Shown: one piece after another, positions 3,725 to 26,963 of the stretch
Layout: every line of letters begins with the position of its first letter
How positions within the stretch are numbered: the stretch's first letter is position 1
NCBI GenBank assembly: GCA_947456525.1
Contig: CANGRI010000006.1
Coordinates: 1 to 36,292 of the forward strand
Reading direction: 5' to 3'
DNA: 36,292 nt
DNA from: Opitutia bacterium
GTDB lineage: Bacteria > Verrucomicrobiota > Verrucomicrobiia > Opitutales > UBA953
Program-made: the position numbers and the translations under genes
Notes under the pieces: model-generated
Database searches by the model: none
Told to the model about the DNA's origin: nothing
What the model saw: the letters and a program-made list of their open reading frames with translations, nothing else

Positions 3725-3737
3725 GGGGGTTGGTAGA

Positions 3738-3760
3738 GGGGGCGGGGTAGGGGTAGGGGG
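3738..3760 (+). repeat. G-rich TAGGGG tract (potential G-quadruplex) upstream of the NHL gene
   Basis: On the plus strand four G-runs occur close together: GGGGG, C, GGGG, TA, GGGG, TA, GGGGG. This satisfies the common G-quadruplex pattern (four runs of at least three G, loops of 1-2 bases). The tract ends 14 bases before the ATG at 3724 and lies on the template strand of that gene, so the mRNA leader is C-rich. An inverted C-rich counterpart lies at 3836-3863 in the same divergent intergenic region. Confidence 0.7.
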
Positions 3761-3788
3761 AGTGCCAACCGGAGGCAAATGGATTTCG

Positions 3789-3835: not shown

Positions 3836-3863
3836 CCCCGACCCCTATCCCTAGCCCTACCCC
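3836..3863 (-). repeat. C-rich CCCTA tract (G-rich on the minus strand) upstream of the DUF1080 gene
   Basis: The plus strand holds CCCC, GA, CCCC, TAT, CCC, TAG, CCC, TA, CCCC. The minus strand, which is the template for the gene starting at 3875, therefore has five G-runs separated by 2-3 bases. The tract is in inverted orientation to 3738-3760 and ends 11 bases before the ATG, occupying the position where a Shine-Dalgarno would normally lie. Confidence 0.65.
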
Positions 3864-3874
3864 TGATACACCCC

Positions 3875-14747: not shown

Positions 14748-17700
14748 ATGTCCGCCGCCTTCCCGAGCTTCCGCTGGCTGAACCGCCGCTGCCTGATCCT
14801 GGCGGCCGGCCTCGCCGCGACCGCTTCCCTGGCCCAGGAGAACGAGAAGCTGACCTACGAAGACCACATCCGGCCCCTGCTCGAGAACAAGTGCTTTTCC
14901 TGCCATAACCCGGACAAGAAGAAGGGCGGACTCGAGCTGACGAGCTACTCCGGGCTCATGAACGGCGGCAGCGGCGGCGCGGTCGTCGACGCCGGCAACC
15001 CGCAGGCGAGCCGCCTCTGGACGTGCAGCGCCAAGAAGGAAGAACCTTTCATGCCGCCGGAAGGCGCGCCGCTCGAGGCCAAGGACCTCGCGCTGCTTTC
15101 CAAGTGGATCGCCGGAGGCGTACTCCAGGCAAAGGGCAGCGTCGCGAAGAAATCCAACAAGCCCAAGGTCGACCTCACTTTCGCCGGCGGTGCGGGCAAG
15201 CCGACCGGACCGGTCGCCCGTCCGGAGAACGTGCTCCTCGAGCCCGTGGTCGTGACGCCGCGCACTTCGGCCGTGACCGCGATGGCGGCCAGCCCGTGGA
15301 CCTCGCTCCTCGCCGTCGCCGGCCAGAAGCAGATCCTGCTCTACGACACCGACTCGCGTGAGCTCGCCGGCATCCTGCCTTATCCCGAAGGTTACGCCCG
15401 CTCGCTGAAGTTCAGCGCCAATGGTTCGCTGCTCGTCATGGGCGGCGGGCGTGGCGGCAAGCTCGGCCATGCCATCGTCTGGGACGTCAAGACCGGCAAG
15501 CGCGTCGCCGAGCTCGGCAAAGAGTTCGACCAGGTGATGTCGGCCGACATCTCGCCCGACCACCGTAAGGTCGTCATCGCCACGAACGCCAAGAAGGTGA
15601 AGTGCTTCGATGTCGCCACGGGCGAGCAGCTGTACCTCATCGCCAAGCATACCGAGTGGGTGACGGGCGCGCAGTTCAGTCCAGATGGCATCCTGCTCGC
15701 CACCTCCGACCGCAACGGCAATGTGATGGTCTGGGAGGCCGAGAACGGCGGCGAATTCTATAACCTCGGACAGCACGGCGGAGCGGTCACCGACCTCGCC
15801 TGGCGTGCCGACTCCAACCTCCTCGTCAGCTGCTCGGCCGACGGGACCATCTCCACTTGGGAGATGAAGACCGGCAAGCGCGTGGGCAGCTGGGGCGCCC
15901 ACGGCAAGGTCCAGTCCGTCGCTTTCACTCCGGACGGGAAGATCCTTTCCTGCGGTTCCGACGGCCGTGTCGCGATGTGGGACATCAACGGCACGCGTAT
16001 CGAGCGCCCGCAGGATATCCTGCAGCCCGACGCCGTCTCGAAGGTCGTCGCTCTCTACGATTCCAAGACCTACGTGACCGGCAACTGGCTGGGCGAGGTC
16101 CGCATGTTCGATTTCGCCTCGGGCCGCGAACTCACGCAGGTCTCCAGCAATCCTGCGAAGATCGCCGATCGTCTGGCCGCCGCCGAGAAGCGTCTCGCCG
16201 AACTTGAACCCGCGCTCGCGCCTGCCGAGGCCGCCATCAAGGCCGCCGAAGCCCGCGTGCCGGCCGCCGAAGCCGCCTTGGCCAAGGTGAAGGCCGACGG
16301 CGAACCTGCCTCCAAGAAACTTGCCGAACACGAGGCCAGGAACGCCGATGTCGTGAAGGGCCTCGCCTATTGGCAAGGTATGGCCGCCAAGGCGAAGACG
16401 CCTGCGGAGAAGGAAAAGGCCGCCAAGGGCATCGCCGATAATCGCGGTGGTCTGACCTACCTCGGTCGGGAGATCGCCAAGCTGAAGCCGGCGGCCGGCG
16501 CTTTCCGCGCTGCCGAAGCCGAGCTCGCCAAGGCCAAGGCCGACCTGGTCGCCGCCCAGTCCAAGGTCCGGGACATCGTCGCCGAGACCGCCGCCCACCG
16601 CGAACGCATCGTCTTCCTCAGGGCCGCGCAGTTCAACGTCGGCGTGCTCGCCGAGCAGGACAAGCTCGCCAAGCTCGAGCAGGACATCGCCGACCTCGTC
16701 GCCGCCAAGGCGGAGAACGAGGCCGCCAAGGTCACCGACGCCGCCCGCATCGCGTCGTCGAAGAAGACCGTCGCGCAGAACGAAGAGCAGATTCCGAAGC
16801 AGCAGGCGGCGCTCGAAGCCCTCAAGGCCGAGTTCGCCCTGCTCGACAAGACCCTTTCGCCCCTGCGTCTGAGCGAAGCCGAGGCCCTCGGCAAGATCGA
16901 GGCCCAGCAGAAACTCATCGACGCCCAGTCCGAAGCCATCGTCCGTCTCGGGCAGGATCGCGACGCCGTCGTCACCGTGGCCAACGCCGCGGTCGCCGCC
17001 TACCGGGATAAATACACCACGCCGCTGCGAGCGCGACTCAACGAGGCGACCGCGAAGGTCGACGAACTCAAGAAGGCCGCCGAGGCCGCCAAGCTCGCCG
17101 CGTCCCAAGGCGCCGCGAAGTCGAAGGAACTTGCGCTCGTCGCCGTGAAGGCCGCCGACGCCGCCAAGCAGGCCGCGGCGAATGTCGCCGCCGCGGACAA
17201 GGCCTTCGGCGAAGCTCGGGAATTTAAGGCGATCTTCTCGTTCCGTTATTTCGCCCGCAAGAAACAGACCGAACAGCAGCTGGCGGAGGCCAAGGACGCG
17301 CTTGCCAAGGCCCACACGGGGCAGGGCGAAGCGGACAAAGCTCTCGTCGCCGCCAAGTCCGCCGAGCAGGCGCTGGTCGCCGCGCAGGTCGCGGCCGATA
17401 AGGCCGTCGCGCCGGCCGGCCTGGCCGTCGCCGCGATCACCAAGGAGCGTTCGGCGCTCATCGTCGAACGCGAGAAGCTGGGCGCCCCCGGCGTCGCCGC
17501 CGAGAAGGAGTACGCCGCCAAGCTGCCCGCCTTGCAGGCCGCCCTGCAGAAGGCCAAGGACGGGCTGCCCGCCTTGGAGAAATCCCTTGTCGCCGTCCGC
17601 GCTCAGCTCGCCGAAGCCGGTAAGCCTGTCGAAGCGAAGCGCCTGCTGGTCGAATCCGCCGCGAAGAACCTCGAGCTCGCCAAGAGCGAGAAGGCCAAGG

Positions 17701-17882
17701 CCGAGAAGGCCATCCTCACCGCCGAGAAGGATATCCCGCAGCGAGACAAGAACCTGGAAGAGATCGCCAAGTCCTACGCCGAACTCACGCCGCAAGTCGA
17801 ACCCATGAAGGCGAAGGTAAAGGCCGCGCAGGAGCAGTATTTCTCGATGCTCCCGAAGCACGTGGTGGCGCAGAAGAATTAA
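14748..17882 (+). CDS. PSCyt1 cytochrome c - WD40 beta-propeller - long coiled-coil fusion protein
   Basis: The product is 1044 residues. After a signal peptide (cleavage near residue 29) comes a PSCyt1 cytochrome c domain with C-F-S-C-H at 49-53 and MPPEGAPL as the likely axial-Met loop. Residues about 171-461 form WD40 repeats (e.g. FSPDGILLATSDRNGNVMVWE, WRADSNLLVSCSADGTISTWE, FTPDGKILSCGSDGRVAMWD), enough for a seven-bladed propeller. From about 465 to the end the protein is an Ala/Lys/Glu-rich coiled coil of some 570 residues. PSCyt1 plus WD40 is common in PVC bacteria; the very long coiled coil suggests a rod, scaffold or peptidoglycan-spanning element. It is last in the DUF1501 operon, followed by a terminator hairpin at 17921. 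A long antisense reading frame covers it but is a codon-bias artefact. Confidence 0.9.
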   Translation: MSAAFPSFRWLNRRCLILAAGLAATASLAQENEKLTYEDHIRPLLENKCFSCHNPDKKKGGLELTSYSGLMNGGSGGAVVDAGNPQASRLWTCSAKKEEPFMPPEGAPLEAKDLALLSKWIAGGVLQAKGSVAKKSNKPKVDLTFAGGAGKPTGPVARPENVLLEPVVVTPRTSAVTAMAASPWTSLLAVAGQKQILLYDTDSRELAGILPYPEGYARSLKFSANGSLLVMGGGRGGKLGHAIVWDVKTGKRVAELGKEFDQVMSADISPDHRKVVIATNAKKVKCFDVATGEQLYLIAKHTEWVTGAQFSPDGILLATSDRNGNVMVWEAENGGEFYNLGQHGGAVTDLAWRADSNLLVSCSADGTISTWEMKTGKRVGSWGAHGKVQSVAFTPDGKILSCGSDGRVAMWDINGTRIERPQDILQPDAVSKVVALYDSKTYVTGNWLGEVRMFDFASGRELTQVSSNPAKIADRLAAAEKRLAELEPALAPAEAAIKAAEARVPAAEAALAKVKADGEPASKKLAEHEARNADVVKGLAYWQGMAAKAKTPAEKEKAAKGIADNRGGLTYLGREIAKLKPAAGAFRAAEAELAKAKADLVAAQSKVRDIVAETAAHRERIVFLRAAQFNVGVLAEQDKLAKLEQDIADLVAAKAENEAAKVTDAARIASSKKTVAQNEEQIPKQQAALEALKAEFALLDKTLSPLRLSEAEALGKIEAQQKLIDAQSEAIVRLGQDRDAVVTVANAAVAAYRDKYTTPLRARLNEATAKVDELKKAAEAAKLAASQGAAKSKELALVAVKAADAAKQAAANVAAADKAFGEAREFKAIFSFRYFARKKQTEQQLAEAKDALAKAHTGQGEADKALVAAKSAEQALVAAQVAADKAVAPAGLAVAAITKERSALIVEREKLGAPGVAAEKEYAAKLPALQAALQKAKDGLPALEKSLVAVRAQLAEAGKPVEAKRLLVESAAKNLELAKSEKAKAEKAILTAEKDIPQRDKNLEEIAKSYAELTPQVEPMKAKVKAAQEQYFSMLPKHVVAQKN

Positions 17883-17884
17883 CC

Positions 17885-17908
17885 GATAGGGTTAGGGCTT
17901 GGGGTAGG
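17885..17908 (+). repeat. G-rich TAGGGTTAGGG tract, left edge of the intergenic repeat element
   Basis: Just after the TAA of the WD40 gene the plus strand reads GATAGGG, TTAGGG, CTTGGGG, TAGG: G-runs separated by 2-3 bases, resembling a telomere-type repeat. An inverted, longer counterpart (C-rich on the plus strand) lies at 18139-18173, so the two tracts bracket the whole 17883-18177 gap. Confidence 0.6.
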
Positions 17909-17920
17909 TAATTTTGGTAG

Positions 17921-17953
17921 GGACAGCACCACGTGCTGTCCTTGCTTGTTTTA
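17921..17953 (+). terminator. Terminator-like hairpin after the DUF1501 operon
   Basis: A perfect 9-bp stem, GGACAGCAC (17921-17929) with GTGCTGTCC (17933-17941) and a CAC loop, is followed by the T-rich stretch TTGCTTGTTTTA (17942-17953). Position and sequence fit a rho-independent terminator for the four-gene operon, although the T tract is interrupted. The hairpin shares its geometry (9-bp stem, 3-base loop, preceding GTAGGG) with the two at 18008-18051, so it may be part of that repeat family. Confidence 0.6.
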
Positions 17954-17960
17954 TCGGCTC

Positions 17961-18097
17961 AAAGGGAAACCGGAGACCGGATGATTGGCTGGGGCGTTAT
18001 TAGGTAGGGCTGACCGGCTCGGTCAGCCGCGGTTGAGCGGGGCGCTCAACCCTACCCGATATACCGCAGGACTCTTCCCGGTTTCCGGTCTCCCTTT
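17961..18097. repeat. 20-bp inverted repeat flanking the hairpin pair
   Basis: AAAGGGAAACCGGAGACCGG at 17961-17980 is found again in inverted orientation at 18078-18097 with 18 of 20 positions identical. The two differences are an A/G exchange at position 8 and the reverse exchange at position 15. The arms enclose 97 bases that hold the two adjacent hairpins at 18004-18055. Confidence 0.75.
18004..18055. repeat. Tandem pair of 9-bp-stem hairpins enclosed by GTAGGG/CCCTAC
   Basis: First hairpin: GGCTGACCG (18008-18016), loop GCT, CGGTCAGCC (18020-18028). Second: GGTTGAGCG (18031-18039), loop GGG, CGCTCAACC (18043-18051). GTAGGG (18004-18009) and CCCTAC (18050-18055) form an outer inverted pair, overlapping slightly with the stems, so the unit could fold as a three-way junction. 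The stems are perfect although their sequences differ, pointing to conservation of structure. It lies between genes on the same strand. Confidence 0.8.
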
Positions 18098-18138
18098 GCT
18101 CACTGTCTTGTTCCGGCAGGGAAGGGTAGTTTGACTCA

Positions 18139-18173
18139 ACCTACCCCTACCCCTATCCCTACCCCTGCCCCTA
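18139..18173 (-). repeat. C-rich CCCCTA tract directly upstream of the pyruvyl transferase gene
   Basis: The plus strand holds CC-TA-CCCC-TA-CCCC-TAT-CCC-TA-CCCC-TG-CCCC-TA. The minus (template) strand therefore contains five runs of at least three G with 2-3 base loops, a strong potential G-quadruplex. It ends about five bases before the ATG at 18178, where a Shine-Dalgarno would be expected. Confidence 0.7.
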
Positions 18174-18177
18174 AGCC

Positions 18178-19407
18178 ATGCTCTCCCGCCGCCGTTTCCT
18201 GGAATCAGCCTTGGTCGCCGCCGTCGCGGCTTCGCTCGGAGCGGCCGAAGGTAGGCGCGTTCCGCGTATCGTGCTGCGTTCTTCGTGGCAGACGGTGAAC
18301 ATCGGCGACATCGCGCACACGCCAGGCGTGCTCGCGCTGCTGGAGAAGCATTTCCCCGAAGCCATGGTCACGCTCTGGCCTAGCAGCGTCGACAACGGCG
18401 TGAAGGAGATGCTGCTGGCGCGTTTTCCGAAGCTGAAGATCGTCGAGACCAAGACCGACGTCGCGAAACTCTACGCCGAGCACGATTTCCTCCTGCATGG
18501 CTCCGGGCCTTCGCTCGTGGGTGAGAAACAGCTCGCTCTCTGGCGTAAGCAGGGCCCGAAGCCGTACGGCGTGTTCGGCATCACCCAGGGCAAGCCTTCG
18601 CCCGCGACGGCGGAAATCCTCGACGGCGCTCGGTTCGTCTATTTCCGCGACTCGGTCTCGCTGGAGGCCGCCAAGGCCGCCGGCGTTAAGTGCCCGGTGA
18701 TGGAGTTCGGCCCGGACGGCGCGTTCGCGACCGACCTCCGAGCCGACGAGAAAGCCGAGGCCTTCCTGCATGGCTGGGGCCTCGAGCGCGGCAAGTTCCT
18801 CTGCTGCATTCCGCGTTATCGTAACACGCCTTATTGGACGATTCACAAGGAGCGCGCGTTCGACCCGGCTAAGCAGAAGCGCAACGACGAGATGAAGGAG
18901 CACGACCATGCCCAGCTGCGCGCCGCGATCGTCGCGGTCCTGAAGCAGACCGATCTCAAGGTGCTCATCTGCCCCGAGGACCGCACCCAGATGGCTCTGG
19001 GTAAGGAGGTCCTTTTCGACCCGCTGCCCGACGATATCAAGGACCGCGTCGTCTGGCGTCAGGATTACTGGCTGACCGACGAGGCTTTGAGCGTCTACGT
19101 CCGGAGCGCCGGCCTCTTCGGCAACGAGATGCACTCGCCCATCATGTGCGTCGGCAACGGCGTCCCCGCCATCGTGTGCCGCTGGGCCGAGCAGACCTCC
19201 AAGGGCAACATGTGGAAGGACATTGGCCTGCATGATTGGCTGTTCGATCTGGACGACGAAACGCAGCTCGCGGGCATCGTCCCGGCCGTGCTCGCCATGG
19301 CCAAGGATCCGGCTGCCGCCAAAGCCAAGGTCGCCAAGGCCCAGGCCGTCCTCCGCGAGCGTCAGACCGCCGCCGTCGGGCGGGTCCGTGCCGCCGTCGG
19401 GAGTTGA
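18178..19407 (+). CDS. Tat-exported polysaccharide pyruvyl transferase family protein
   Basis: The product is 409 residues. The first 25 residues form a Tat signal (S-R-R-R-F-L at 3-8, then an Ala-rich hydrophobic stretch). The mature part shows features of the polysaccharide pyruvyl transferase family (PF04230), a GT-B-like fold: [21 protein letters not shown] near the start, [11 protein letters not shown] in the first half, [25 protein letters not shown], and [22 protein letters not shown] in the second half. Family members add pyruvate ketals to sugars of capsules and cell-wall polymers using cytoplasmic phosphoenolpyruvate, so a Tat-exported member is unexpected; its donor and activity are unknown. 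It stands alone, preceded by the C-rich repeat tract and 295 bases of repeats, and followed by the leader of the efflux operon. Confidence 0.83.
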
Positions 19408-20751: not shown

Positions 20752-23700
20752 ATGAACATCTCCCGTCCGTTCATCGAGAGGCCCGTCGCCACCACGCTGC
20801 TGATGGTGGCGCTGATGCTGTGCGGCATCCTCGGTTACCGGGCGCTCTCCGTCGCCGCGCTGCCGGAAGTCGACTACCCGACGATCCAGGTCACCGCCGC
20901 CTATCCCGGCGCCAGCCCCGAGGTGATGATCACCTCCGTCACCGCTCCGCTCGAGCGCAAGCTGGGCCAGATGCCCGGCCTGACGCAGATGACCTCGACG
21001 AGCTCGGCGGGCTCGACCTCGATCACGTTGCAGTTCGACCTGGCCATCTCGCTCGACGTCGCCGAACAGCAGGTGCAGGCGGCCATCAACGAGGCAGGTT
21101 CCTATCTTCCGCCCGGCCTGCCTTCGCCGCCCGTCTACAGCAAGGTGAACCCCGCCGACGCCCCCATCATGACGCTCGCCGTCACGTCGGAGTCGCTGCC
21201 CCTGCCGAAGATCGCCGACCTCGTCGACACGCGCCTCGCGCAGAAGATCTCGCAGGTCTCCGGCGTCGGCATGGTCAGCATCGCCGGCGGCCAGCGTCCC
21301 GCCGTGCGCGTGAAGGTCAACCCGACCGCGCTCGCCTCCTATGGCCTCAACCTCGAGGCCGTGCGCCTCGCCCTGGTCGGCGCCAACGCCAACAGCGCCA
21401 AGGGCGGCTTCGACGGCCTGAAGCAATCGTCGACCATCGACGCCAACGACCAGCTCAAGTCGCCCGCCGATTACGACAAGGTCATCCTCGCCTACCGCAA
21501 CGGGGCGCCGATCCGGCTGAGCGACGTAGCCGATACGTCCGACGGGGCCGAGAACGTCTATCTTTCCGCGTGGGCGGGTCATAATCCCGGCGGCCAGACG
21601 CCCGGCGTCATCCTGAACATCCAACGCCAGCCGGGCGCGAACGTCATCGCCGTCGTCGACCGCATCAAGGAGATCCTCCCGCAGCTGCAGGGGTCCATCC
21701 CCGGCGCCGTCAAGGTCGCGGTGCTCACGGACCGGACCATCACCATCCGCGCCTCCGTCGAGGACGTGCAGGTCGAGCTCCTGCTTTCCGTCTTCCTGGT
21801 CGTCGCGGTCATCTTCGTCTTCCTGCGCAGCGTGCCGGCCACCGTCATCCCGGGCATCACCGTGCCGCTCTCGCTGATCGGCACCTTCGCGGTCATCTAC
21901 CTCTGCGATTTCTCCATCAACAACCTCACCCTGATGGCGCTGACCATCGCGACGGGCTTCGTCGTCGACGACGCCATCGTGATGATCGAGAACATCTCCC
22001 GCTACATCGAGCAGGGCGACTCTCCCATGGAGGCTTCGCTCAAGGGCTCGGCTGACATCGGCTTCACGATCATCTCCCTGACCTTCTCGCTGATCGCGGT
22101 GCTCATCCCGCTCCTGTTCATGGCCGACGTCGTGGGCCGTCTGTTCCGCGAGTTCGCCATCACCCTGGCGGTCTCGATCCTCATCTCGGCGGTGATCTCG
22201 CTGACGCTCACCCCGATGATGTGCAGCCGCATGCTCAAGCACGCGCCGGAGGCCGAGGAGAGCCGCTGGAGCAAGGCCTTGGGACGCTTCTTCGACGAAG
22301 TCATCCGCCGCTACGGCCTCGCCCTGCGCTGGGTGCTGGCCCGGCAGCGCGCCACGCTCTGGGTGGCCGTCGGCACGCTCGTCCTGACCGGCTTGCTCTA
22401 CGTCTTCATCCCCAAGGGCTTCTTCCCCACGCAGGATACCGGCGTCATCCAAGGTGTCACCGAAGCCCGTCAGGACATCTCTTTCGCCGCCATGGGCGCG
22501 AAGCAGCAGCAGGTCGCCGACGCCGTGCTCGCCGACCCCGACGTGGAAAGCCTCGCCTCGTTCATCGGCGTCGACGGCATCAACGCCACGGTCAATTCCG
22601 GCCGCATCGTCATCAACCTGCGCCCTTTGAGCCAGCGCAAGGCCCGCGCTCCGGAGATCGCCGCCCGGCTCCAGGCCCGCGTCGCCGCCCTCGACGGCGT
22701 GACGCTCTACCTGCAGCCGGTGCAGGACATGACCGTCGACACCACCGTCAGCCGTACCCAGTACCAGTTCCTGCTGCAGAGCCCGCGTCCGGACGACCTT
22801 ACCACCTGGGTGCCTCCGCTGATGGAGAAGATCAAGGCCTTGCCGAAGGTGAAGGACGTCGCCACCGACCTGCAGACCAACGGCCGCCAGGTGTACGTCG
22901 AGATCGACCGCGCCGCCGCGGGCCGCTATGGCATCAGCGTCGCCGACATCGACGCGGTGCTCTACGACGCCTTGGGCCAGCGCATCGTCTCGACGATCTT
23001 CACCCAGTCGAACCAGTACCGCGTGATCCTCGAGGTGAAGCCCGAGTTCCGGGAAGGCGTGACGTCGCTCTCGCGGCTCTACGTCTCGACGCCCGCGGGC
23101 GCGCAGGTGCCGCTCGCCAACCTCGCCAAGTTCACCGAGCAGCCCGCCCAGCTTTCGATCACCCGCGTGGGCCAGTTCCCGTGCGCCCGCATCTCCTTCA
23201 ATCTCGCCGAAGGCGCCGCGCTGGGCGACGCCGTGAAGGCCATCAAGAAGGCCGAGAAGGACCTCAGCATGCCCGAGTCGATCGTCACCACCTTCCAGGG
23301 CGCCGCGGCGGCCTTCGAGGTCGCGCTGAAGAACGAGCTCTGGCTGATCCTGGCGGCCATCGTGGTCATGTACATCGTCCTCGGCGTCCTGTACGAGAGC
23401 TTCATCCACCCCGTCACGATCCTCTCGACGCTTCCGTCGGCCGGCGTGGGCGCGTTGCTGGCCCTGATCCTTTCCCGCACCGACCTGGATGTCATCGGCA
23501 TCATCGGGATCATCCTGCTCATCGGCATCGTGAAGAAGAACGCCATCATGATGGTCGACTTCGCCTTGGACGCGGAGCGCACGCAGGGCCTTGCGCCCGA
23601 GGAGGCGATCTATCAGGCCTGCCTCCTGCGTTTCCGCCCGATCCTCATGACCACCATGGCGGCCTTGCTGGGCGCCTTGCCGCTCATGCTGGGTTCCGGC

Positions 23701-23871
23701 ATGGGCTCCGAGATGCGCCAGCCCCTGGGCATCACCATGGTCGGCGGCCTGATCGTCAGCCAGGTGCTGACCTTGTTCACCACGCCGGTCATCTATCTCT
23801 GGTTTGATCGCCTCAACCGCCGTCGCTCGGCCGTCGGGCAGGCCGCGGCGCCGCCCGCCGCCCAGCCGTGA
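20752..23871 (+). CDS. mdtB: RND efflux permease, first of two (MdtB-like)
   Basis: The product is 1039 residues, the usual length for a hydrophobe/amphiphile efflux (HAE1) RND pump. It has an N-terminal TM helix ([26 protein letters not shown]), two large periplasmic loops, and TM clusters near 330-480 and 860-1020. The proton-relay residues are in place: Asp406-Asp407 in [14 protein letters not shown] and Lys929 in [14 protein letters not shown]. The loop sequence PDVDYPT-type ([21 protein letters not shown]) matches MdtB/MdtC rather than AcrB. It sits in the inner membrane, using proton influx to drive substrate export with the MdtA-type adaptor. It overlaps the next permease in GTGA, so the two are probably translated in fixed proportion, as expected for an MdtBC heteromer. 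The substrate cannot be read from sequence. Confidence 0.95.
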
Positions 23872-26800
23872 ACCTGTCCGCGTTCTTCATCCGCCGGCCC
23901 GTCGCGACCACGTTGCTGACGATCGCCGTGGCCTTGTCGGGCCTGGCCGCCTTCCGGATCCTGCCGGTCTCGCCTTTGCCGCAGGTGGACTTCCCGACGA
24001 TCGCCGTCTCGGCCTCCATGCCTGGCGCCAGCCCCGAGACCATGGCCGCGACGGTCGCGACCCCCTTGGAGCGCGCCTTGGGCCGCATCGCGGGCGTGAC
24101 CGAGATCACCTCGAGCAGCACGCGCGGCAACACGTCGGTGATCCTGCAGTTCGACCTATCGCGTGACATCAACGGAGCGGCCCGCGAAGTGCAGTCGGCG
24201 ATCAGCGCCTCGCGTTCGATGCTGCCCTCGGCGCTCACCAACAACCCCTCCTATCGCAAGCTGAACCCGGCGGACTCGCCGATCATGCTGCTGGCGATCA
24301 CCTCCGAGAACTATACGCGCCCGCAGATCTACGACGTCGCGACGACCTTGCTGGCGCAGAAGATCGCGCAGATCGAAGGGGTGGGGGACGTCAGCGTCGG
24401 CGGCGGCGCCTTGCCGGCCGTGCGCGTGAACGTAAATCCGGCCCAGCTGGGCGCCTATGGCGTCTCGCTCGAGGACGTGCGCAAGACCATTGCGGCGACC
24501 AACGTCAATACGCCCAAGGGCTTCGTCGAGGCGGGTTCGTCCCGCTGGCAGGTCGTCGCGAACGACCAGGCCCTGAAGGCCGAAGACTACCTCCCGCTCG
24601 TCGTCACCTACCGCGGCGGCACCCCGGTCATGATCTCGGACGTGGCCAGCGTCACGGACTCCGTGGAGGACGTCCGCAACGCCGGCATCATGAACGGCAA
24701 ACCCGCCATCATCATCGTCGTCACCCGCCAGCCCGGGGCGAACATCATCGAGACCGTCGACCGCATCAAGGCCCAGATCCCGGCGTTGCAGGCGCTCATG
24801 CCCAAGGGAATGGAGATGTCCGCGGCGATCGACCGTTCGGTGACGATCCGCAGCTCGCTGCACGAGGTGGAGCGTTCGCTCATCCTCTCGGTCGTCCTCG
24901 TGACGTTGGTCGTCTTCCTCTTCCTCCGCGACATCCGCGTCACGCTGATCCCCGCGGTCGTCGTGCCCGTCTCGATCCTGGGCACCTTCGGGGTGATGGC
25001 CTTGGCCGGCTTCTCGGTGAACAACCTGACGCTGATGGCCCTGACCGTCGCGACGGGCTTCGTGGTGGATGACGCCATCGTGGTGCTGGAGAACATCTCG
25101 CGCCACATGGAGGCCGGCATGCCGCGTCGTGAGGCGGCCTTGCAGGGCGCCAAGGAGGTCGGTTTCACCGTCATCTCCATCAGCATCTCGTTGGTGGCCG
25201 TCTTCATCCCGATCCTGCTCATGGGCGGGCTCGTGGGGCGCCTGTTCCGCGAGTTCGCCATCACGCTCTCGGTCGCGATCGCGGTCTCGCTGGTGATCTC
25301 GCTCAGCACGACCCCGATGATGTGCTCGCGGCTCCTGCGGAAGCACGTCGCCGACCTCAAGCCGGGCTACGTGGACCGCTTCTTCGGCTGGCTCCTGGCC
25401 GGCTACCGCCGGTCGCTGCGCTGGGTGCTCGACCACGGGTTCGTGGTGCTCGGCGCGCTGGTCGCGACCGTCGCCCTGAACGTCGTCCTGTACCTGAACA
25501 TCCCCAAGGGCTTCTTCCCTCAGCAGGACACCGGCTTCCTGATGGGCAACATCGACGCCGACCAGAGCATCTCGTTCCGGGAGATGGACGACAAGATGCT
25601 CCGGATCGCCGAGATTGTCCAGGCCGAGCCCAATGTCACGGCGATCAGCGCCTCCATCGGCGGGGGTCGGGGCGGTCCCATCAATTCCGCCCGTCTCTAC
25701 GTCCTGCTCAAGCCGTTGGCCGAGCGCGACGAGTCCGCCGAGCAGATCATCGCCCGGCTCCGCATCAAGACCGCGCGCGTCACCGGCGCCCGCCTGATTC
25801 TCCAGTCCGGCCAGGATATCCGCATCGGCGGCCGCTCCAGCCCTTCGACCTACCAGTTCACGCTGCAGTCCGACGACCTGAACCTCCTCAACGCCTGGGT
25901 GCCCAAGGTGCAGGCCGCGATGGCGGGCCTGCCCGAGCTGACGGATGTCAGCACGGACTCCCAGAACCGCGGCTTGCAGACGTACGTCACCTACGACCGG
26001 GACAAGATGGCCGCCCTCGGCGTCAGCGTCGATGTCGCGAACCGCACCCTGTATGACGCCTTCGGTCAGGAATCCATCTCGCTCCTCTTCAAGTCTCTGA
26101 ACCAGTACCGCGTGATCATGGAGGTCAACTCGGCCCGGACGCTGAACCCCGAATCATTGCGCGACATCTTCGTGGTGACGTCGGCCGGCAAGCGCGTGCC
26201 GCTCACGACCTTCGCCCGCTATGAGCCGGCGAACGCGCCGCTGAGCGTGAACCATCAGTCGCAATTCGTCGCCACCACGATCTCGTTCAACCTCGCCCCC
26301 GGCTTCATGCTCAACGACGCCGACGTCGCGATCCGGCGGGCGATGGGCGAGATCGGCGTGCCCACGGCGGTGCAGGGCGGCTTCCAGGGCACGGCGAAGA
26401 TGTTCCAGGAGTCCCTGAACAACCAGCCCTACCTCATCCTCGGGGCGATCCTGGCGATGTACGTCATCCTCGGCATCCTCTACGAGAGCTACGTCCATCC
26501 GATCACGATCCTGTCGACGTTGCCCTCGGCCGGCATCGGTGCCCTGATCGCGCTCATGGTGATGGGCATGGAGTTCAGCATCATCGCCCTGATCGGCGTG
26601 CTGCTCCTCATCGGCATCGTGAAGAAGAACGCGATCATGATGATCGACTTCGCGATCGAAGCGGAGCGTACGCGGGGAATCCCGGCCGGGCAGGCCATCT
26701 TCGAGGCCTGCCAGCTGCGTTTCCGCCCAATCATGATGACCACCTTGGCGGCGCTCTTCGGGGCCTTGCCCTTGGCGATCGGCTTCGGGGAAGGGTCCGA

Positions 26801-26963
26801 ACTGCGTCGCCCGTTGGGCATCGCCATCGTCGGCGGCCTGCTGGTGAGCCAGTTGCTGACTCTTTATACGACGCCCGTCGTGTACCTCTATTTCGACCGT
26901 CTTCGCCAGTGGACCCTGCGTCGCCGGGCCGCTGTTGCGACGTTGCCAACCCCCGCCCCATGA
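23868..26963 (+). CDS. mdtC: RND efflux permease, second of two (MdtC-like)
   Basis: The product is 1031 residues. The GTG start at 23868 overlaps the TGA of the first permease (GTGA), and the reading begins [26 protein letters not shown], the standard RND opening. The proton-relay Asp pair is Asp401-Asp402 in [14 protein letters not shown], and Lys920 lies in [14 protein letters not shown]. The protein is clearly paralogous to its neighbour but divergent, as in the MdtB/MdtC pair of enterobacteria, in which two different permeases assemble in one trimer. Export is proton-driven across the inner membrane. The stop overlaps the start of the outer-membrane factor gene in ATGA, continuing the chain of coupled genes. 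Confidence 0.95.

Follow-up and report, generated by a model that had tools for sequence, protein, structure and literature searches.

The 36,292-nt stretch of DNA analyzed here (the window), which derives from an uncultured Opitutales bacterium, contains a short region downstream of a WD40/cytochrome-type gene that is unusually dense in hairpins, and this raises the question of what these structures are and how they came to be there. We find that the region corresponds exactly to one intergenic gap, 17883-18177, and is a mosaic of non-autonomous repeats that are dispersed in this genome and across the genus (Table 1). Its hairpins are very probably REPs of the GTAG type, namely a singlet and a head-to-head heterodimer, which were probably spread by RAYT transposases found in sister species, with the dimer being nested inside a second palindromic repeat that we term B.

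Table 1. Modules of the repeat-filled gap, in window coordinates
Feature	Position	Strand	Remarks
Whole intergenic region, repeat-filled	17883-18177 (295 bp)		between two + strand genes
Left TAGGG/GGGGTA-type tract	17887-17909	+	past the upstream stop codon; similar tract at the equivalent place in orthologs
REP1, GTAG + GGACAGCAC-cac-GTGCTGTCC, singlet, ACAGCAC class	17917-17941	+	hairpin 17921-17941; cognate RAYTs in relatives
Repeat B, left half (Ba end), CTCAAAGGGAAACCGGAGACCGGATGATTGGCTGGGG...	17958-17997	+	100% copies elsewhere in own genome; 42-copy empty-loop consensus
REP2, GTAG + GGCTGACCG-gct-CGGTCAGCC, half of head-to-head heterodimer	18004-18028	+	hairpin 18008-18028
REP3, GTAG + GGTTGAGCG-ccc-CGCTCAACC, other half of heterodimer	18031-18055	-	hairpin 18031-18051, there listed with loop ggg
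Repeat B, right half (Bb end), ...CCGCAG..TTCCCGGTTTCCGGTCTCCCTTTG	18064-18100	-	copies elsewhere; consensus
GGGAAGGGTAGTTTGACTC	18119-18137	+	conserved near the downstream gene in repeat-containing orthologs
Right CCCCTA-type tract	18139-18172	-	directly ahead of the start codon; similar tracts in orthologs and elsewhere in the genome

The gap is directly bordered by an upstream ORF of 1044 aa (14748-17882) with PSCyt1 and WD40 domains and by a downstream ORF of 409 aa (18178-19407) coding for a polysaccharide pyruvyl transferase. An initial annotation of this DNA had described three hairpins with perfect 9-bp stems and 3-base loops, tied to GTAGGG or CCCTAC words. All three were recovered at precisely the coordinates given for them; their GC-rich palindromes and small loops fit REPs of the GTAG type, and of the tetranucleotides that head such REPs (GTAG or GTGG) it is GTAG that directly precedes each of them on its own strand. 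The 20-bp inverted repeat (17961-17980 and 18078-18097, matching at 18 of 20 positions) and the outer inverted TAGGG/CCCTA tracts are present as well. The description of the stems as unrelated did not survive closer inspection, as the second and third hairpins have stems that are identical at 7 of 9 positions and together make up a heterodimer that recurs elsewhere, with a spacer of 2 bp.

These structures are real and far beyond what chance would produce. A 276-kb sample of the own genome, comprising the window and 240 kb chosen without regard to the motif, contains 11 GTAGG-headed 9-bp hairpins with at most one mismatch (four in the window and seven outside it), against 0.1 expected under a Markov model, and folding of the 295-bp gap in comparison to shuffled sequences yields z = -7.6 as DNA and z = -7.7 as RNA. 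The idea that the region is a chance or low-complexity artefact, either of a GC-rich gap or of assembly, can draw on the simple hexamer-like sequence of the outer tracts and the fragmented assembly (1.8 Mb in 144 contigs, 65% complete); yet we consider its probability negligible, since GTAG-headed hairpins are essentially lacking in shuffles, and the orthologs refute it, with the same modules lying at the equivalent position in assemblies made independently from other species.

Searching the own genome with the whole region recovered 60 matches among those listed, and these fall in separate blocks: 1) REP1 alone; 2) the left 40 bp of the inverted repeat; 3) the REP2/REP3 dimer; 4) the right arm; and 5) the C-rich tract. 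The matched places share a common REP grammar, namely GTAG, GG(N7), a loop of 3 or 4 nt and (N7)CC, which is realized with many different stems. Similar modules were found in 34 of 37 genomes of the same genus, which together with the multiple copies in the own genome makes the early guess at a mobile palindromic family of the REP/MITE kind largely right; a set of 20 genomes representing other families of the order yielded no such module. To gauge their diversity among relatives we used a sample of 116 loci (777 kb), which were retrieved by the exact REP1 sequence, so that the REP1 count in it is inflated. This sample contains 522 GTAGG-headed REPs with 79 different stems, as against none in its shuffle, along with 47 tight head-to-head dimers, nearly all of unlike halves; occurrence as dimers or BIMEs is a feature of GTAG-type REPs. 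The pair seen in the window (GGCTGACCG/GGTTGAGCG) accounts for seven of the 47 and is the second commonest, and the REP2/REP3 heterodimer is a minimal BIME/REPIN. The family thus has the high copy number of GTAG-type REPs, and intergenic placement was seen in the window and its orthologs.

The source records of the REP1-matched loci belong to Opitutae, Opitutales, Opitutus or Verrucomicrobia, save for a few MAGs whose species names are probably incorrect. The exact REP1 sequence is carried by MAGs assigned to Akkermansia muciniphila, Polynucleobacter and Gemmatimonas (L165, L200, L228 and L238), which are likely to be mislabelled or contaminated bins. As for distribution within the own genome, the large contigs sampled contain few REPs in their initial 20 kb, and many of the REP-rich places are located on small contigs or close to a contig end, which looks as though the repeats had broken up the assembly.

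The initial annotation had also raised selection on structure, with compensatory changes as a means of checking it, and such changes in the stems were indeed found. Copies were picked by their 5' arm only, and the 3' arms were dealt out among the copies as a control; Watson-Crick cells numbered 322 against a shuffled maximum of 302 in one set, and 224 against 200 in another, in comparisons that did not control for the relatedness of the copies. Stem position 3 of the copies thus picked uses A-T, G-C and T-A. A third set (the 3-base-loop version, yyGA.C class) mixed loop lengths and was uninformative. Hence, the pairing of these REPs is kept while the sequence of their stems varies.

Y1 transposases, the kind of partner to be expected for a REP family, are present in the genus. 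Their short versions (about 140-220 aa) align with an invariant PDHxH and tyrosine, and the best solved relative of a profile derived from them is E. coli TnpA-REP (4er8; E 6e-15), with Y127 aligning to Y115 of 4er8. These proteins thereby combine the HUH motif, the catalytic tyrosine and the similarity to TnpA-REP that typify RAYTs. GTAG REPs occur on at least one side in all 27 distinct RAYT ORFs examined in the genus and on both sides in 24; two of the three exceptions to the latter begin at a contig end. The TnpA-REP-type partner which the initial annotation had proposed looking for is hence represented by RAYTs that are bordered by the REP classes of the window: the REP1 class (ACAGCAC) flanks RAYTs of five genomes (G004, G008, G010, G034 and G036) and the class of the window dimer those of four (G007, G024, G028 and G060). 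Longer Y1 transposases (300+ aa) were likewise considered; the lack of flanking REPs at most of their loci makes it improbable that they are the cognate enzymes.

When the REP classes were placed on the RAYT tree, 14 classes required 13 changes, which is the minimum and was reached in 0 of 200 shuffles; eight of the 14 are represented by one row each and do not contribute to this test, and the class labels were assigned by the analyst from the flanking REPs, with one locus (L297) having further-out REPs of other classes. The window REP classes each correspond to one clade of the RAYT tree, with support of 97/95 and 100/99. Each REP class follows its own RAYT clade. Cognate RAYTs of the window classes are found in sister species, while the own genome, at 65% completeness, yielded no intact RAYT of either class, the RAYT on contig C118 falling outside the class test. 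That gene (C118:790-1236) codes for an apparently intact protein of 157 aa and lies beside a REP-rich contig end. A further RAYT of the own genome, on contig C73 (L047 1236-1676), has REP flanks of the TCAGCAC class and two in-frame stops, and intact relatives of it exist in other species.

These associations suggest a mechanism. Most likely, the RAYTs recognize the single-stranded hairpin, cut it at the GTAG head and copy REPs into the site, with each RAYT lineage probably serving its own stem class. The copy number, the class diversity, the match of RAYT and REP classes and the presence or absence at orthologous sites are directly observed, and transposition would be the cause of the spread.

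Alternatively, the region might be mainly an RNA device, with terminator or mRNA-stabilizing hairpins that are under selection in the transcript rather than for mobility. Its predicted RNA fold is strong (z = -7.7), REP1 with its T-rich tail was called terminator-like, T-rich tails are seen in 14 of 137 ACAGCAC copies of relatives, and REPs have been reported predominantly downstream of coding regions (PMC3733652). However, terminator-like sites number 1 against 0.6 expected by shuffling, the gene pair is kept in orthologs with hairpin-free gaps of 46 bp, and the same hairpins are met with again at unrelated loci and beside transposase genes, all of which makes this alternative quite improbable. 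A scan of the region for promoters and terminators found no promoter and one weak terminator-like site, and an Rfam search with it found no family (best match E 0.083, to an unrelated miRNA and far below the cut-off). A role at the RNA level, be it in termination or stability, is at best weakly indicated and is not needed as an explanation; any effect of the region on transcripts is secondary to its nature as a REP-bearing mosaic.

The arms of the 20-bp inverted repeat are the two ends of B, a second dispersed palindromic repeat of about 80 bp (CTCAAAGGGAAACCGGAGACCGGATGATTGGCTGGGG ... CCGCAGCATCCTTYCCGGTTTCCGGTCTCCCTTTG), which is present in 36 of 41 genomes of the same genus. Among 66 distinct B elements, the loop is empty in 42 (about 80 bp), contains other sequence in 14 and contains REPs in 10, including that of the window; the REPs in these 10 filled loops belong to four dimer classes. 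The 42-copy consensus shows the same two A/G differences between the left and right ends as the window. Accordingly, these differences are a property of B itself and not, as had been supposed, a trace of exchange between related units in the window copy. B has terminal inverted repeats, is non-coding and is dispersed, and is probably MITE-like: with its roughly 80 bp and long terminal inverted repeats it resembles bacterial MITEs, such as RUP, NEMIS and ERIC, but no universal target-site duplication and no partner transposase were found for it among the loci examined. The flanks of 30 B copies display no constant direct repeat, with some of them extending the palindrome (ACTC...GAGT), and no transposase for B was found between B ends among the loci examined. 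We rejected B as an autonomous transposon because two pairs of B spaced 1.5 kb apart enclose ordinary genes. The consensus fold obtained for the B alignment with RNAalifold was poor owing to gaps and the variable loop. The B loops of several species (L072, L073, L131, L226 and others) contain an imperfect inverted repeat of about 150 bp (TCGGGTCTCAGGTCTCGG... / ...GAGACCTGAGACCCGA).

Given this nested arrangement, the block from 17958 to 18100, with B ends and REP dimer, might instead be a single composite mobile unit, mobilized by a transposase acting on the terminal inverted repeats of B. Blocks of Ba, dimer and Bb, 125-148 bp in length, do occur at several loci in several species, and the B ends recur with the same asymmetry. 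Against this, the same loop may be empty or contain either other inserts or REP pairs, the latter of four classes, the dimer is far commoner without B, the copies have no target-site duplication common to all and no transposase was found between the B ends, and the 1.5-kb spaced B pairs hold the ordinary genes mentioned above; we therefore deem such a unit unlikely. In the preferred reading, RAYT-spread REPs and B are separate elements, with the heterodimer sitting in the loop of a probably MITE-like repeat that has two distinguishable ends. Nesting is no general rule, as among the 47 tight dimers in loci that were retrieved by REP1 and not for B, B ends are seen on one side in six and on both sides in none. 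We likewise do not claim the B loop as a hotspot for REPs: ten loops are REP-filled, but many of the loci concerned had been picked up through their resemblance to the window, as against no such case among the 47 dimers of the loci retrieved by REP1 alone. A related proposal is that the B apex is a landing site, whereby an extruded or single-stranded B loop receives dimers from RAYTs of different classes. We hold this to be improbable; were it true, one selfish palindrome would act as a safe harbor for others, and the nested unit might spread by the machinery of B.

Orthologs of the neighboring gene are present in most of the genus, and comparison of the orthologous gaps revealed both the empty sites that the initial annotation had suggested seeking and partly filled ones. 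The orthologous gap measures 46-47 bp in G035, G005 and G018, where the gene pair is kept and there is no hairpin, and 200-452 bp in species whose repeat-carrying gap is readable whole. REP1 is absent from G028, G021 and G024 between matching flanks (GGTAGGTRAT and GCTCAAAGGG), with G024 having a REP of the REP1 class further upstream within the gap. At the orthologous site the B loop is empty in G036, holds the window's dimer in G014, and holds a different insert of about 150 bp in G021 as well as G004, which is the closest relative (96% in the neighbor protein). G027 and G028 combine the window dimer and the ~150-bp insert in tandem, plus an extra B half, and on this basis the states of the window and of G004 could have arisen as alternative outcomes of deletion between B repeats. 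Later gain and loss may also have proceeded by recombination between B copies. The differences between these orthologous sequences could be losses as well as gains, no movement having been observed.

We also noted further repeats. Hexamer-like tracts of (GGGGTA)n or (TACCCC)n, potentially G-quadruplex forming, occur in the window at 3726-3766, 3838-3866, 17887-17909 and 18139-18172, and elsewhere at L027 464-575 and L037 508-662. In some intergenic regions they occur as inverted pairs, one tract at each end, with the C-rich arm shortly before the start codon; such pairs number only two in a 1.05-Mb sample. An exact 22-mer, GGGGTAGGGGTAGGGGTAGGGG, is found in 12 genomes of the same genus but was not seen in any other family tested, and the reversed control gave zero matches. 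Further, the window codes at 20752-26963 for two tandem ORFs of ~1030 aa (20752-23871 and 23868-26963) containing 70-75% DNA repeats with a spacing of about 3.1 kb, which are likely to be a duplicated gene pair.

The elements described here are of a kind already published, as GTAG REPs whose dimers are spaced by 1-2 bp, the co-evolution of RAYTs with REPs and dimers inside palindromes are all on record (PMC3733652, PMC2817692), and they do not represent a new type. For the many RAYT-REP pairs of this genus, for repeat B and for the nesting of REPs in B we found no description in the REP/RAYT literature compared. Our analysis shows that an uncultured Opitutales genus, from a little-studied branch, harbors a dense REP/RAYT system of many classes, and it links these classes with the enzymes that are likely to serve them; with its 14 RAYT-REP pairings and variable orthologous sites, the genus offers a good natural series for studying the co-evolution of RAYTs and hairpins.

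Among known systems, REP dimers nested in longer palindromes have been described as GTAG-15 of Anabaena variabilis and CGTC-1 of H. neapolitanus (PMC3733652). The window shares with these the insertion of a REP dimer in a longer palindrome; in those two species, however, the host palindrome is not found without the REP, whereas B is a dispersed repeat whose loop is mostly empty. In the gammaproteobacterial RAYT/REP pairs, inverted REPs flank the RAYT, the REP and RAYT trees agree, and the palindrome is kept while its sequence changes (Nunvar et al. 2010, PMC2817692), and E. coli TnpA-REP is reported to bind single-stranded REPs and cut them at GTAG (PMC3733652). The present system resembles both in its REP-flanked RAYTs, co-varying classes, kept palindrome and closest structural relative, 4er8; the qualifying RAYTs of that survey were confined to gammaproteobacteria, while those reported here, recognized by sequence, come from Opitutales. 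Nearer in phylogeny, Opitutus terrae of the Verrucomicrobia has been reported as highly enriched in GTAG REPs, GTAG-17 and GTAG-19, with head-to-head dimers of GTAG-17 being only 1-2 bp apart and dimers of unlike halves being common in the GTAG superfamily (Di Nocera et al. 2013, PMC3733652). The likeness, which we draw by description and not by stem sequence, extends to the GTAG head, short stem, small loop, many copies, mostly intergenic placement, tight dimers and RAYT association (PMC3733652). The difference lies in the 14 stem classes that are seen here, with their own RAYTs, within one uncultured genus.
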